64,000 nucleotides of DNA. It comes from Alkalicella caledoniensis (lineage in GTDB: Bacteria > Bacillota > Proteinivoracia > Proteinivoracales > Proteinivoracaceae). Made by a program: the position numbers and the translations under genes. Under the pieces are notes generated by a model that did no database searches, had not been told where the DNA came from, and saw only the letters and a list, made by a program, of their open reading frames with translations. This document shows, piece by piece, positions 2,895 to 8,489 of this stretch. Position 1 is the stretch's first letter. Each line of letters opens with the position of its first letter. The stretch lies in contig NZ_CP058559.1 of the NCBI RefSeq assembly GCF_014467015.1, forward strand, positions 248,001 to 312,000. Direction: 5' to 3'.

Positions 2895-3214
2895 TTTTGT
2901 TGCCCCCTCGTATCAAAATTTTTAGAGCTGATATTTGAATCATTTTCTTAACCCTCATTACTTTAAGCACTACTTTACAAATCAAAGCATTTATCTGCTT
3001 TTACAAAGTTTCATAGTAATTATAATAATGACCCAGGCTCTTAATATTATAGACGAAAAAGAGTCAAAAAAGTTACAGCTTTTTAGAAAAGATTCCATAT
3101 TATAGTCAAAGTATATTGCATTTATATTCATCTTCATTAAATGGAATGAATATTTAACTCTTTGTATGGATAAAAGATATTTAGAAAGAAGGGGGCATGC
3201 TAAATAAGACATTA

Positions 3215-3249
3215 TTAAGGGTAGAATGTCAATGACAATCTACCCTTAA
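3215..3249. repeat. Inverted repeat downstream of the ABC permease
   Basis: Perfect 11-bp arms (TTAAGGGTAGA at 3215-3225, TCTACCCTTAA at 3239-3249) enclose a smaller TGTCA/TGACA dyad. It lies 38 bases beyond the permease stop. A transcriptional end is plausible, but no T run follows on the minus strand, so a stabilising hairpin is as likely. The rest of 2895-3287 shows nothing else. Confidence 0.55.
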
Positions 3250-3287
3250 GGTTATTATTATTTCCTTTATTATTTAACCCAGGACCT

Positions 3288-5651
3288 TTATTCGTTTACC
3301 AGTGAATATGCGGTGATTTTTCTGATCCGGTAGGTAATAAGCATGGAGAATACATAGGATACTAATACAATAATGGCTCCAAGGATAATTATCCAAGAAG
3401 GGGTAATGATATAGTTTGCCCTCATAATACCCATGGTTTTTTGGGTAATTGTCATTATGGAATTGGTTTGAGTCATCCCCAACATGCTTCCTATGAATAC
3501 ACCCATTACAATAGGAGGCAAAAGTCCTAAGGAAAGCTGTTTCATAAGCTGAAATGTGGTAAATCCGAGGGCTTTTTGTAAGCCCAATTCATGTTTTTTC
3601 CTAATAACAGAGGAGTTAATAACAAAGTATAAAACAAGAATCACCACAAATAACGTAATAACTAATATTGTAATACCAACCATTGATAATACAGATGAAA
3701 ATTGACCCATCCCGTCCTGAAACTCTTTATACATATCAATTGTAGTAGCAAAGGAATACCCATAAAGATTCTCAATTTTATCTCTAAACTCTGATGATTC
3801 AATATTTTTATCAAGGTATATATGCAGGTCTAGCTGCTGAAAATCTGGAAATAGCCTTAAAATACCTTGATGCTGGATACTAACAATACTTAACTCACCC
3901 CTAGGAGCCCCTTGAGATAAACCTGTGATGATAAACTCTGCTTGCCTATCTCCCACCTCCAGCACAATACTACCCCCTATTCTTTTGTCTATACTATTAG
4001 CCAGGTATCCTGAAACAACAATTTCATTACTATGAATGGGATATCTACCATCATAGACTGTATTGGTTACCTTTTCAGAAAAATCATCCATTACAAAGGA
4101 TACTATTTCTCTATTGCCATACTTTACAATAGTTGTATCAATAAACTGAGCCTTTTTTACATTCTCTAAGTTTTTGATATTTTCAACGGTACTTGTACTA
4201 TCAGCACTATTGTTAAACATTGCAATGACATGGGACTGTTCAACCCCTGGAATTTCTGCAAATGCTGTTGTGTCAATGGTAGAATTGTAAAACATAACAA
4301 AGGCAAATGCGCTTGCAAAAGAAACAACCATGAAAATTATACTTATCATAATACTCTGTCTCATATTTTGAAGCATTAGTTTGAAAGCTAAAACAGAAGG
4401 TAGACTTCCCTTAGTTTTGTGAAGGGGCATATGGTTTTTGCGGAAACTATGGGTCATAATTCCTCCCCTTAAAGCTACTATGGGGTTAAGTTTGTTTATA
4501 TGCCATGAAGCCATAAGGGAAACTAAAGCCACAATAGATAGTATAACAAATAGTGAGATGGCACTAATCACTCCATCAAACCCCTGCTCCCATCTTAATC
4601 CTGACTGATGGGCAAAAACCTTTGATAGTACAGGAGTTGCCAGGTATGATAATGAAATTCCCCCGACACTCCCTATAAGGGATATAATGGAAAATTGTGT
4701 AACAATGGATAGTATTATTTGTTTACTGGTATAGCCCACTGCCTTAAGGGAGCCAATCTTGGTCATATCCTCCTCAATACTATTTACAATTCTATATCGT
4801 ACAACAATAAGGCAAACAACAGTAATTATGGTTGAAAAGGCTATCATCATCACCGATATGCCACCAGCCATCATGGAACGGGACATTTTTACATGTTCTA
4901 GTTCCAAACTTAAAAAATTATTTGGATTAAAATTTCCATAAGCTGCAATATGGGGGTTATCCTCTCTGATAATATCCCTTATTCCTTTTTCTAAGTCGTT
5001 ATTACCTTCCCTTAGATTAGCAAATATCAAGGTAGCGTTGTGCTCATCTCCCAGTCTTTCTAAAACAGTCTCGTAGGTATCGTTTGGCAGGTAAACTCCC
5101 ATAATTACTGTATCTAAGGAGCTAAAAAATACATCCTCTATAAATCCTTTAATGGTAAAGTTTAAGGTAATGTCCTTAAGTTCCATCATAAACTCATCGT
5201 TCAAACTGTATCCACCGTCAACCTTCATTACATATGGAACATATATGGACATTGAATCAGGGGGAAGGTGTTCTCCAACAAATTTCCAATTTGAAATATT
5301 CCTAGTCCCGCGGGCATTGTTAATAAGGAAAACGCTATCACGAAAACTGCCGTTATAAGGGATGGTCCCCATTACCCATATGGCACTTTCCCTTTGAAGG
5401 GTTTCAATATTATCATTACTGTTGATATACTCATCTATTTTGGAGCTGTATAGATTGTCGGGCATCAAATAATAGACATCCGAAGAATTCAACTCCTCAA
5501 TTATATCTTCAAAATAACCTCCAAAATTTACTAAAATTAATAGTCCTAAATTTAAGAGCATTGCTGCAATTATAAACAAGAGAAGTATTGACACAGCATG
5601 ACCCTTACTCTTTTTGATATTTGCAAAACTAAGCATAAATATCTTACCCAT
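3288..5651 (-). CDS. FtsX-type ABC transporter permease (MacB/BceB-like)
   Basis: About 787 residues. One N-terminal membrane segment is followed by a large extracytoplasmic region, a block of three membrane segments (about residues 280-410), a further segment, a second external domain, and a final three-segment FtsX block at the C-terminus. This duplicated FtsX layout belongs to permeases that export or sense peptides and lipids at the envelope. The start is taken at the ATG at 5651, directly after the ATPase stop and behind GGGGTGG, rather than at 5669. It pairs with the ATPase just upstream, and the two-component system next to it is the likely regulator. The substrate is unknown; antimicrobial-peptide response is an inference from the family. 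Confidence 0.88.
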   Translation of the reverse strand: MGKIFMLSFANIKKSKGHAVSILLLFIIAAMLLNLGLLILVNFGGYFEDIIEELNSSDVYYLMPDNLYSSKIDEYINSNDNIETLQRESAIWVMGTIPYNGSFRDSVFLINNARGTRNISNWKFVGEHLPPDSMSIYVPYVMKVDGGYSLNDEFMMELKDITLNFTIKGFIEDVFFSSLDTVIMGVYLPNDTYETVLERLGDEHNATLIFANLREGNNDLEKGIRDIIREDNPHIAAYGNFNPNNFLSLELEHVKMSRSMMAGGISVMMIAFSTIITVVCLIVVRYRIVNSIEEDMTKIGSLKAVGYTSKQIILSIVTQFSIISLIGSVGGISLSYLATPVLSKVFAHQSGLRWEQGFDGVISAISLFVILSIVALVSLMASWHINKLNPIVALRGGIMTHSFRKNHMPLHKTKGSLPSVLAFKLMLQNMRQSIMISIIFMVVSFASAFAFVMFYNSTIDTTAFAEIPGVEQSHVIAMFNNSADSTSTVENIKNLENVKKAQFIDTTIVKYGNREIVSFVMDDFSEKVTNTVYDGRYPIHSNEIVVSGYLANSIDKRIGGSIVLEVGDRQAEFIITGLSQGAPRGELSIVSIQHQGILRLFPDFQQLDLHIYLDKNIESSEFRDKIENLYGYSFATTIDMYKEFQDGMGQFSSVLSMVGITILVITLFVVILVLYFVINSSVIRKKHELGLQKALGFTTFQLMKQLSLGLLPPIVMGVFIGSMLGMTQTNSIMTITQKTMGIMRANYIITPSWIIILGAIIVLVSYVFSMLITYRIRKITAYSLVNE

Positions 5652-5652
5652 T

Positions 5653-6432
5653 TTACCACCCCATTTCATTTAGGAATGAATGTAGTTTATCCTGCCTGTT
5701 TTTATCGCCACTAACATATTTACCCAAGTCACAAACCCCTTGAATTGAACCATCACGCATATACAAAATACGATTACCACGCCTTGCGGACTTTATATCG
5801 TGTGTAACCATGATAATGCTTTGCCCCCTATTATTGACCTCTGTTAATACATCTAAGGTAGCTTTACCTGCCCCGGAGTTTAGTGCACCGGTGGGTTCAT
5901 CTGCAAATATTACTTTTGGGTTATTAACCAACGCTCTAACAATGGCAGCGCGCTGGGCTTCTCCCCCTGATAATTGAGATGGAAACTTATTCCAAATTGT
6001 TTCGTTTAGACCTACCTGTGTAAGCAAATCCTTTGCCCTTTCAGCAATAGCCTTTCTATCACTACTAATAAGGAGGCCACTTATAAGGATATTGTCCAGT
6101 ATACTCATGTTATCCATGAGATATATTTGTTGAAAGACAAAACCGCAATTCAATCTTCTAAAAACCGCAAGCTTATCGTTAGATAAGTCTGAAATTACAC
6201 TTTGGTTAAATTTAATTGTTCCTAAGGTTGGTTTATCCATCCCTGACAATGCATAAAGCAGTGTTGATTTCCCTGCCCCAGAAGAACCCATGATTACAGT
6301 AAAATCCCCCTCATATATTTCAATGTCAAGGTTTTTAAGAATATGTTGCTGCACACCACCGTATGAAAATGTTTTACAAAGCTTATCTGTACTTATTATA
6401 GGGTTACCACTAGTTACATCTTTATCCATCAT
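5653..6432 (-). CDS. ABC transporter ATP-binding protein (MacB/LolD type)
   Basis: Carries Walker A GSSGAGKST, signature LSGGEAQR, Walker B VIFADEPT and the switch histidine VTHD, all in the order of the MacB/LolD/FtsE ATPases that work with FtsX-type permeases. The ATG at 6432 is preferred over the one at 6450, because AAAGGGA lies 9 bases before it and falls between the two. It is translationally close-coupled to the permease. The TATAAT promoter and phased TTAAGGA boxes upstream indicate expression controlled by a response regulator. Confidence 0.9.
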   Translation of the reverse strand: MMDKDVTSGNPIISTDKLCKTFSYGGVQQHILKNLDIEIYEGDFTVIMGSSGAGKSTLLYALSGMDKPTLGTIKFNQSVISDLSNDKLAVFRRLNCGFVFQQIYLMDNMSILDNILISGLLISSDRKAIAERAKDLLTQVGLNETIWNKFPSQLSGGEAQRAAIVRALVNNPKVIFADEPTGALNSGAGKATLDVLTEVNNRGQSIIMVTHDIKSARRGNRILYMRDGSIQGVCDLGKYVSGDKNRQDKLHSFLNEMGW

Positions 6433-6450
6433 AATTAACATCCCTTTCAT

Positions 6451-6484
6451 AAAAAAATAAGACTGTTTTACCTACAGTCTTATT
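6451..6484 (-). terminator. Terminator of the two-component operon, overlapping the ABC promoter
   Basis: On the minus strand a 10-bp stem (AATAAGACTG/CAGTCTTATT, 6475-6484 with 6456-6465) is followed by seven T. It ends the response-regulator/kinase transcript. The ABC transcript would start at about 6475, inside the left arm, and should therefore escape it. Confidence 0.8.
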
Positions 6485-6536
6485 ATAGTTGAAAATTCCT
6501 TAACAGGTCTTTACCTAATCCTTAACTAATCCTTAA
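6482..6536 (-). promoter_or_regulatory. Regulated promoter of the ABC operon with 11-bp-phased boxes
   Basis: Read on the minus strand, five 11-base blocks run without gaps: TTAAGGATTAG (6536-6526), TTAAGGATTAG (6525-6515), GTAAAGACCTG, TTAAGGAATTT (6503-6493) and TCAACTATAAT, whose last six bases are a perfect -10. No good -35 is present. Direct repeats phased by one helical turn are the usual binding pattern of OmpR-family regulators, and such a regulator is encoded next door. Confidence 0.75.
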
Positions 6537-6541
6537 ATATT

Positions 6542-7807
6542 TTAAGGAATTAAAAGTTTTAACACCATAGTAAATCCATCCTGGGAATTTTCGCAATAAA
6601 TATCTCCCTCCATTTTCTCCATCATATACTTAGATATATATAGCCCTAAACCTGTGCCATTTTGACCTTTGGAATTTTTTGCCCTAAAGTATTTATTAAA
6701 AAGTAGTGGCTTTTCCTCCTCGGAAACTCCCTTACCATAATCTTTAAAAGCAATTTCAAGGTGCTTACCCTTTATAACAGAGGACACATAAATGGAGGTG
6801 CCAGCGTACTTATAGGAGTTGCTAATTATATTATCAATGACCTGGGTTAGTCTTAATAAATCCCCTAAAAAAATACACTGGGGAATTCTTGCAATTTCTG
6901 TAAGATTATTGTAATCTGCAGCTTTAATTAGATCGTAGAAAATATCGCTGGTGTGTTCTGAAGATACAACCTTAAGCTCTTGTAGTTCCTCTAGGGATGC
7001 ATTGAACATATTTGTTATCAGTGTATCAATCTGGTCAGCCTTTGAATTAATTATTTCCAATTGCCTTCGTTGGCTTTCATCTGGTGTTTTTATATGCATC
7101 AATTCCGTAACAGCCTTAATTGAAGCCACGGGGGTTTTTATATCATGGCTAAGTGAAGCAACAAGCTCTTTTTTACTCTGGTTGGCGAGACTTTCCCTTG
7201 CCCTTGAGTTGTTAATCTCCTCCCTCATAAGGTCAAAGCTTTCGGTAAATGCTCCAAACAAATTCCCCTCATCCATTTCAAGGGGCATATCTAAGTTGCC
7301 CTCTGCCACATGGCGGGCAAAGATCTGAAGTTTTCTAAAGGGAAGTATAATTTTCCTGTCAATGTAAGCAAAGTATAATAAACATATAACTGCAGGAAAA
7401 ATTATCAGTAAATAAGTATATACAAGGATGCGATTTCTAAATGCAATCCATTGGGTCTTTGAATCATTATATACTATTAATTTGCCTAGCACTTCATCCT
7501 CTAATTTTATATCTAAAATTATGTCCCTGTTTCGTATTGCAGAGCCCAAATCATTATTTAAGCCCTTTCTTGTAGCTATAAGGAACTGGTTTTTATTATC
7601 AAGTACAACATAATCCATTTTATAATTTAAGCCCGGTAGCTGATTATCTTCCAGCTTTACCCATCCATTTGCAAGGGAATTTGCAATGTCATTAACAGCT
7701 GGAACGTCAATTTCGTATTCCCCGCTATATTTAAAAGCATAAAGGGTAAGCCCACTACAGGTTAGTATAACAACCAAAAATATAACTACTAGTCTTTTAA
7801 AGTTCAT
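6542..7807 (-). CDS. Sensor histidine kinase
   Basis: About 421 residues. A membrane helix near the N-terminus (about residues 8-29) is followed by an extracytoplasmic sensor loop of roughly 100 residues. Then come a second helix (about 131-152), a HAMP-like linker, a HisKA domain with phospho-accepting His in SLSHDIKTP (about residue 225 of the long reading), and a HATPase domain. That domain has N-box NSYKYAG, G1 KDYGKG and G2 GTGLGLYI. The ATG at 7807, four bases after the regulator stop, is preferred to the GTG at 7819. Its partner is the OmpR-type regulator immediately upstream, and the likely output is the ABC exporter downstream. Confidence 0.92.
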   Translation of the reverse strand: MNFKRLVVIFLVVILTCSGLTLYAFKYSGEYEIDVPAVNDIANSLANGWVKLEDNQLPGLNYKMDYVVLDNKNQFLIATRKGLNNDLGSAIRNRDIILDIKLEDEVLGKLIVYNDSKTQWIAFRNRILVYTYLLIIFPAVICLLYFAYIDRKIILPFRKLQIFARHVAEGNLDMPLEMDEGNLFGAFTESFDLMREEINNSRARESLANQSKKELVASLSHDIKTPVASIKAVTELMHIKTPDESQRRQLEIINSKADQIDTLITNMFNASLEELQELKVVSSEHTSDIFYDLIKAADYNNLTEIARIPQCIFLGDLLRLTQVIDNIISNSYKYAGTSIYVSSVIKGKHLEIAFKDYGKGVSEEEKPLLFNKYFRAKNSKGQNGTGLGLYISKYMMEKMEGDIYCENSQDGFTMVLKLLIP

Positions 7808-7808
7808 T

Positions 7809-8489
7809 TTAAAATCCACTCTCTAACACATATCCCGTACCCCAAACGGTTTTAATAAAACGTGGCTCGTTGGGATTTTCCTCTATCTTTTCACGCAGCC
7901 TTCTTATATGCACGTTCAGCGTTCCCTCTGAAGTAATTACATCCCCCCATACCTTTTGAAAAAGTTCATCCTTGGTAATGGTTCGGTTTTTATTTTGGAC
8001 TAAGTATGCCAATAGCTTATATTCCATTGCCTTTAATTTGATTTCATTAGCACCTTGCATAAGCTTCTCCCTTTGCAGGTCCAGGGAAAAGCTGCCAAAG
8101 ACTATATTGTTTTCTCCATTAGAGCTGTATCTTTTTAAAACAGTCTTAACCTTGGCCATGAGTATATTTAGGGAATATGGTTTTTGGATATAGTCATCAC
8201 CACCGATATTAAGGGCTAGGAGTATATCATCATCGCTTCTTCTAGCACTGATAAACAAAATAGGTACATCCATGGTCCTTCTCAGCTCTTTGCAAATTTC
8301 AAATCCAGAATCTTGTCCTAGATTTATATCCAACAGAATCAGTTCTACCCTGTTCTTTGATAAAAAATCAAAACAAGAAGCTTTATCCGCTACCCAATAG
8401 GTCTTTATACCAAACATATTGAAGAATTCACAGGTACTTTGTGATAGAGCCTTCTCATCATCCACTATCAAACAGTCATATCTCAACAT
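7809..8489 (-). CDS. OmpR-family response regulator
   Basis: 226 residues. The receiver domain has the acidic pair DDE near residues 10-12, phospho-acceptor Asp54 in ILLDINL and the conserved lysine in YIQKPYS. A C-terminal winged helix of the OmpR/PhoB class follows (LTVHIRRLREKIE-like NVHIRRLREKIE and TVWGTGYVLE). It is the first gene of a two-gene operon with the kinase; GGGGGAT precedes the ATG. The phased TTAAGGA boxes in front of the ABC operon are its probable targets. Confidence 0.93.
   Translation of the reverse strand: MLRYDCLIVDDEKALSQSTCEFFNMFGIKTYWVADKASCFDFLSKNRVELILLDINLGQDSGFEICKELRRTMDVPILFISARRSDDDILLALNIGGDDYIQKPYSLNILMAKVKTVLKRYSSNGENNIVFGSFSLDLQREKLMQGANEIKLKAMEYKLLAYLVQNKNRTITKDELFQKVWGDVITSEGTLNVHIRRLREKIEENPNEPRFIKTVWGTGYVLESGF

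Follow-up and report, generated by a model that had tools for sequence, protein, structure and literature searches.

The window, by which we mean the whole 64-kb stretch of DNA analysed here, carries on its minus strand a two-component system followed by an ABC exporter. The genes of this module are, in the order in which they would be transcribed:

7809..8489, minus strand: response regulator gene, OmpR/PhoB-type, presumed activator of the promoter described below (Pfam Response_reg and Trans_reg_C)
6542..7819, minus strand: sensor histidine kinase gene (ORF; HisKA and HATPase_c)
5653..6432, minus strand: ABC transporter ATPase gene (ORF and ABC_tran)
3288..5669, minus strand: permease gene, 793 residues, presumed target together with the ATPase gene (FtsX, two stretches)

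In its longest form the ATPase ORF starts at 6450, and a start at 6432 or 6429, behind the ribosome-binding site AAAGGG, is more likely. Bce/Psd-type modules likewise consist of a regulator, a kinase, an ATPase and an FtsX-type permease, and their exporter promoter lies between the kinase and ATPase genes. The module in the window has this same gene order and promoter place; it differs in that its kinase seems, by eye, to have an extracellular segment, its 793-residue permease has two FtsX stretches, and its operator is made of four direct repeats. The exported substrate is perhaps an envelope-active compound. A SepM-like protease, whose match lies under the family's cut-off, is found upstream of the module in the window. 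Just 3′ of the permease gene, at 3200-3260 on the minus strand, is an inverted repeat, AAGGGTAGA...TCTACCCTT, which is likely to be an end-of-operon hairpin.

The element studied here occupies the gap between the kinase and ATPase genes on the minus strand. Its operator and promoter comprise:

6526..6536, minus strand: operator box 1, TTAAGGATTAG (sequence; alignment of 30 loci)
6515..6525, minus strand: operator box 2, TTAAGGATTAG (sequence; alignment of 30 loci)
6504..6514, minus strand: operator box 3, degenerate, GTAAAGACCTG, covering the -35 region (sequence; alignment of 30 loci)
6493..6503, minus strand: operator box 4, TTAAGGAATTT (sequence; alignment of 30 loci)
6482..6487, minus strand: -10 element TATAAT (sequence)
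6475 (about), minus strand: predicted transcription start, inside the left arm of the hairpin described below (usual -10 to +1 distance)

The four 11-bp units adjoin one another from 6536 to 6493, in a phase of exactly 11, and are followed by TCAAC (5 bp) and then TATAAT; the predicted start is the G at 6475, 7 nt past the -10. An earlier note on this DNA, made from the letters alone, had described TTAAGGA boxes in strict 11-base phase ahead of TATAAT, and this description holds, with TTAAGGA present three times and a degenerate GTAAAGA in the third slot. At spacers of 16 to 18 the hexamers are GACCTG, AGACCT and AAGACC, and TTGACA is absent. The promoter is therefore missing from the output of a sigma-70 scan of the window, and the -35 region coincides with the degenerate third box. 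The missing TTGACA is as expected of an activator-dependent promoter. OmpR-family class-II activated promoters have direct repeats in 10-11-bp phase that end beside a -10, and no consensus -35; the four 11-bp boxes, the 5 bp and the -10 here follow this layout.

Interlocked with this promoter is a hairpin, reported by a terminator scan:

6474..6484, minus strand: left arm of the terminator hairpin, which takes in the last bases of the -10 and extends to +2 (terminator scan; pairing across relatives)
6456..6466, minus strand: right arm of the terminator hairpin (terminator scan)
6450..6460, minus strand: T-rich tail, TTATTTTTTTA, whose first bases pair with the left arm (sequence; terminator scan)

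The hairpin, AATAAGACTGT-AGGTAAA-ACAGTCTTATT at 6484-6456 and followed by Ts to 6451, has 11 pairs and a loop of 7. As in a terminator-promoter overlap, bases are held in common: the left arm (6484-6474) shares AAT with TATAAT (6487-6482) and also includes the predicted start. With a start at 6475, the transcript would retain just two bases of the left arm. We found that read-through RNA from the kinase gene folds into the 11-pair hairpin at -11.8 kcal/mol (z -3.7), a value that 0 of 200 shuffles equalled, while RNA from the predicted start gives -0.2 kcal/mol and no hairpin, so that folding bears out the earlier statement that the one RNA folds and the other does not. A bidirectional terminator was considered and dropped, because the opposite strand has, by eye, no good T-run.

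To place the element among relatives, we searched for its neighbouring genes. A kinase search of genome contigs returned three loci, of which Clostridium sulfidigenes (71% identity) and Tissierella sp. P1 (58%) were informative. The permease was found in 3 of 398 genomes across the phylum, the window's own included, and in 28 of the 197 genomes of one other Bacillota family. The intergenic regions of 32 loci were compared, two of the entries (L010 and L069) being the same place, and 30 loci, namely the window, C. sulfidigenes and 28 from that other family, were aligned. A fixed-spacing regular expression matched 29 of the 30; the last, L044, whose first box is TTTAG, was added via its own sequence. 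All 30 align without a gap over 66 columns, 18 of which are invariant. Box 3 reads [GA][CT]AAAGA in most relatives, and the -10 appears there as TATGAT, TACGAT, TATAGT and others. Among the 16 non-redundant loci, the boxes had a mean pairwise identity of 0.71 and the -10 one of 0.82, against 0.29 upstream and 0.30 downstream of them. Leave-one-out matrix scans placed the true site first, by a wide margin, in all 16, and a 55-bp matrix built from the 15 non-redundant relatives, with the window's own sequence excluded, scored the window site at 49.0 bits; no other position in the 64 kb, on either strand, scored above -2.4.

Simpler patterns served less well. The two-box pattern TTAAGGA-N4-TTAAGGA, with two mismatches allowed, was uninformative, since it matched the whole genome 93 times and a reversed control 132 times. 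A pattern of three boxes plus TATAAT, run over the 398 genomes of the phylum, matched the window with 0 mismatches and a second place with 3; it is too strict for the relatives because their -10 and boxes vary. Together, the conservation across families of boxes, spacing, -10 and hairpin, along with the folding, supports the earlier proposal of a regulated promoter interlocked with a terminator. The switch appears to be kept in relatives from distant bacteria and to be real, but it is made of known parts.

The hairpin is more variable than the promoter. We scored it with a simple stem score against 200 shuffles per locus (smallest p 0.005), keeping the promoter head fixed and shuffling the downstream part. 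At p≤0.05 a hairpin beyond shuffles was present in 16 of the 30 loci (1.5 expected, for loci that are related and a test that ignores kinship), and at p≤0.01 in 12. In these 16 the hairpin lies in the same register, overlapping the -10, and every one of them has standard pairs from -4 to +2. Six stem positions show two-sided changes among them, for example A-T to G-C, and loop lengths vary by locus (4, 5, 6, 7, 14 and 32 nt). Such two-sided changes and loop lengths favour an RNA hairpin over a DNA operator. A DNA operator would be the natural reading if the inverted repeat bound a dimeric repressor on the -10 and +1, as the perfect 11-bp dyad over the -10 and start, a typical repressor position, might suggest, and several loci do keep the left-arm ACTGTA with no right arm to match it. 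We consider this quite improbable: an arm distance of 4 to 32 nt would be intolerable for a fixed protein dimer, a T-run directly follows the right arm in the window, and in many loci the right arm is lost while the activator boxes are kept.

The other 14 loci have no hairpin beyond shuffles, whether weak or gone, with operator and -10 intact; in many of them the left arm is retained and the right arm is gone. This suggests that insulation is optional, whereas operator and promoter are not. The clean insulation claimed earlier agrees with the folding in the window but does not extend to a general requirement. A joint transcript is possible in those 14 loci, and the kinase stop codon lies only 5 bases before box 1, both of which would suit an alternative in which the hairpin is an attenuator with an upstream start and a signal, or in which partial termination tunes a single operon of regulator, kinase and exporter. 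We regard this as very doubtful, as no conserved competing structure was seen upstream, and what is conserved is four direct repeats in phase plus a -10, i.e. a promoter. An Rfam search of 6300-6700 also returned no match to a described leader or attenuator at E up to 1.

Returning to the hairpin as an RNA terminator, we found that its T-run differs in quality among loci. It is good (5-7 T of 8) in the window, C. sulfidigenes, L044, L045, L053, L056, L057 and three of L067-L071, has 4 T of 8 in L068, and is poor (2-3 T of 8) despite the hairpin in L046, L047, L048, L054 and L061. The folding contrast between read-through and started RNA is also seen in other loci. L044 and L040 (Tissierella sp. 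P1) have nested hairpins, in which RNA from the start folds the inner hairpin, with the T-run not directly after it, and RNA from the start also forms an inner hairpin in L069. On an ATPase tree of 32 rows (13 of 29 inner branches weak; hairpin state of L040 set by eye), hairpin presence changes at least 6 times, gain and loss being indistinguishable, which indicates that the hairpin comes or goes repeatedly.

Two variant loci bear on which gene the terminator belongs to. In Tissierella sp. P1 (L040:5260-6500) a gene resembling a GNAT acetyltransferase, by eye, lies between kinase and ATPase, and immediately before the ATPase come the boxes, TATAAT and a longer, nested hairpin that has its T-run. 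The terminator thus appears to move together with the exporter promoter. It had earlier been described as the terminator of the upstream operon; we instead assign it to the exporter promoter, because in Tissierella sp. P1 the element stays with the ATPase, and not the kinase, despite the intervening gene. In genome G227 (L075:2500-2720, minus strand) the exporter lies behind another upstream gene and the regulator (52%) downstream of the permease. Here two or more boxes stand further from the -10 than in other loci, and the hairpin is long, with a 14-position near-perfect stem, eight Ts and TATGAT in the loop. L075 was left out of the 30 because of this different box-to--10 spacing; it appears to follow the same principle with a different geometry.

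We next consider which regulator reads the boxes. A search of the window's genome with a model of the element, for which the window was in the training set, gave one convincing site (E 1.3e-13). The second-best match (E 0.03), a short tandem repeat before an isoprenyl-transferase-like gene, was rejected. A strong site was present in 28 of 28 permease-bearing genomes of the other Bacillota family, the same genomes that trained the model, and therefore the informative part is the 169 permease-free genomes of that family, where one (G403) had a strong site and three had weak ones. The recognition-helix segment GTLNVHIR-x-LREK was identical in all eight regulators aligned (8 of ~32 loci). Since the site is linked to the module and the helix is invariant, we provisionally assign the boxes to the adjacent response regulator.

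The boxes might instead belong to another regulator, e.g. the phosphate regulator: ORFs a few kb upstream read by eye as pst and phoU genes, and PhoB/PhoP-type regulators also read 11-bp repeats. The PhoP core binding region of Bacillus subtilis has four TTAACA-like repeats in 11-bp phase upstream of the -10, bound by two dimers; the likeness lies in the four phased repeats, and the repeat sequence and the global phosphate regulon of PhoP set it apart. Such an assignment is very improbable: the genome has a single convincing site, the site accompanies a regulator-kinase-exporter module in C. sulfidigenes, in Tissierella and, in another family, in 28 of 28 genomes, and the ORFs listed for C. 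sulfidigenes showed no pst gene.

Two further sites lie outside the module. The strong site of G403 (L084:1500-1570) precedes a transporter gene that looks EamA-like by eye, has no close regulator, kinase or exporter in its neighbourhood (best regulator match 37%), and is probably a relic of a lost module. Genome G551 has a second site (L114:2276-2334, minus strand; E 6.9e-9), without a hairpin, before a beta-lactamase-like serine hydrolase gene (by eye), hinting at a cell-envelope stress regulon.

From these features we predict, with a probability of about 0.8, that the adjacent OmpR-family regulator activates the exporter genes by a class-II mechanism from a terminator-promoter overlap. The exporter operon would have its own promoter, switched on by the regulator encoded two genes upstream. 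The four 11-bp boxes (about -61 to -18) would be occupied by two phosphorylated regulator dimers arranged head-to-tail, with the last pair placed over the missing -35 and in contact with RNA polymerase, and the polymerase would start from TATAAT at about 6475. An intrinsic terminator would use the same bases, from the -10 to about +2, as its left arm. Polymerase coming in from the kinase gene would copy both arms, so that its RNA would fold and stop in the T-run, whereas polymerase started at the promoter would copy the right arm only and pass. The exporter would then be made only while the regulator is active, because incoming RNA would stop and promoter-born RNA would pass. Regulator binding, phosphorylation dependence, the start site and termination efficiency are predictions of this scheme. 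It is very unlikely that the overlap instead couples the two units rather than insulating them, with terminated polymerases staying on the DNA, sliding back a few bases and restarting at the -10 when the regulator is bound; if it did, transcription of the kinase operon would feed the exporter promoter, and the loci that have lost the hairpin, about half of the total, would have changed their wiring.

Under the class-II reading, about 85 bases hold operator, promoter and terminator, and initiation itself would disarm the terminator. The relatives with and without a hairpin on the same promoter offer a natural comparison for the effect of the overlap on expression. Term searches of the open-access literature found no report of this module and nothing fitting the operator, which, now defined, offers a way into a regulator-exporter family that those searches did not find described. 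The element neatly combines known parts, of which it is a new and well conserved example, and the overlap arrangement itself has already been published. The available text of PMC7055797 cites inter-operon terminator-promoter overlaps in Salmonella at tufB-secE, secE-rpoBC and S10-spc-alpha (Brandis et al. 2019) and says that the overlap matters for expression. There, too, the upstream unit's terminator has sequence in common with the promoter of the unit that follows. As far as that text describes them, the Salmonella cases concern housekeeping operons of a Gram-negative, whereas here an activator-controlled promoter serves a two-component-exporter module in Bacillota, the left arm covers the -10 and start, and many relatives have lost the overlap. 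In the Clostridium sol operon, the promoter region is overlapped by the terminator of a non-coding RNA (PMC9402939, in part).

The operator most resembles the CiaR box of streptococci, which the accessible part of PMC3091779 gives as the direct repeat NTTAAG-N5-TTTAAG, in 11-bp phase and at a fixed 10 nt upstream of the -10. The phase is the same and the distance to the -10 nearly so (10 nt for CiaR and 11 nt here, counted alike), but by the same excerpt CiaR promoters have two boxes where this one has four. The recognition helices also differ (VVEVYVSKVRKKL in CiaR, GTLNVHIRRLREKI here), placing the element outside the CiaR regulon as described there, and CiaR has 15 promoters in S. pneumoniae as against one convincing site in the genome here.

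The module (window 5653-8489) looks horizontally acquired, since the permease was absent from four genomes of the window's own family (G001-G004, search at E 1e-60) and the nearest kin on the ATPase tree are C. sulfidigenes, Tissierella and G549, the last from the other Bacillota family; a plasmid collection gave a single ATPase match (2%). Similar phased boxes before TATAAT were observed at the end of the kinase gene in a different regulator-kinase-ABC module (L115, about 2066-2124; L118, about 2148-2206), so that the phased-box layout may be wider than one family.
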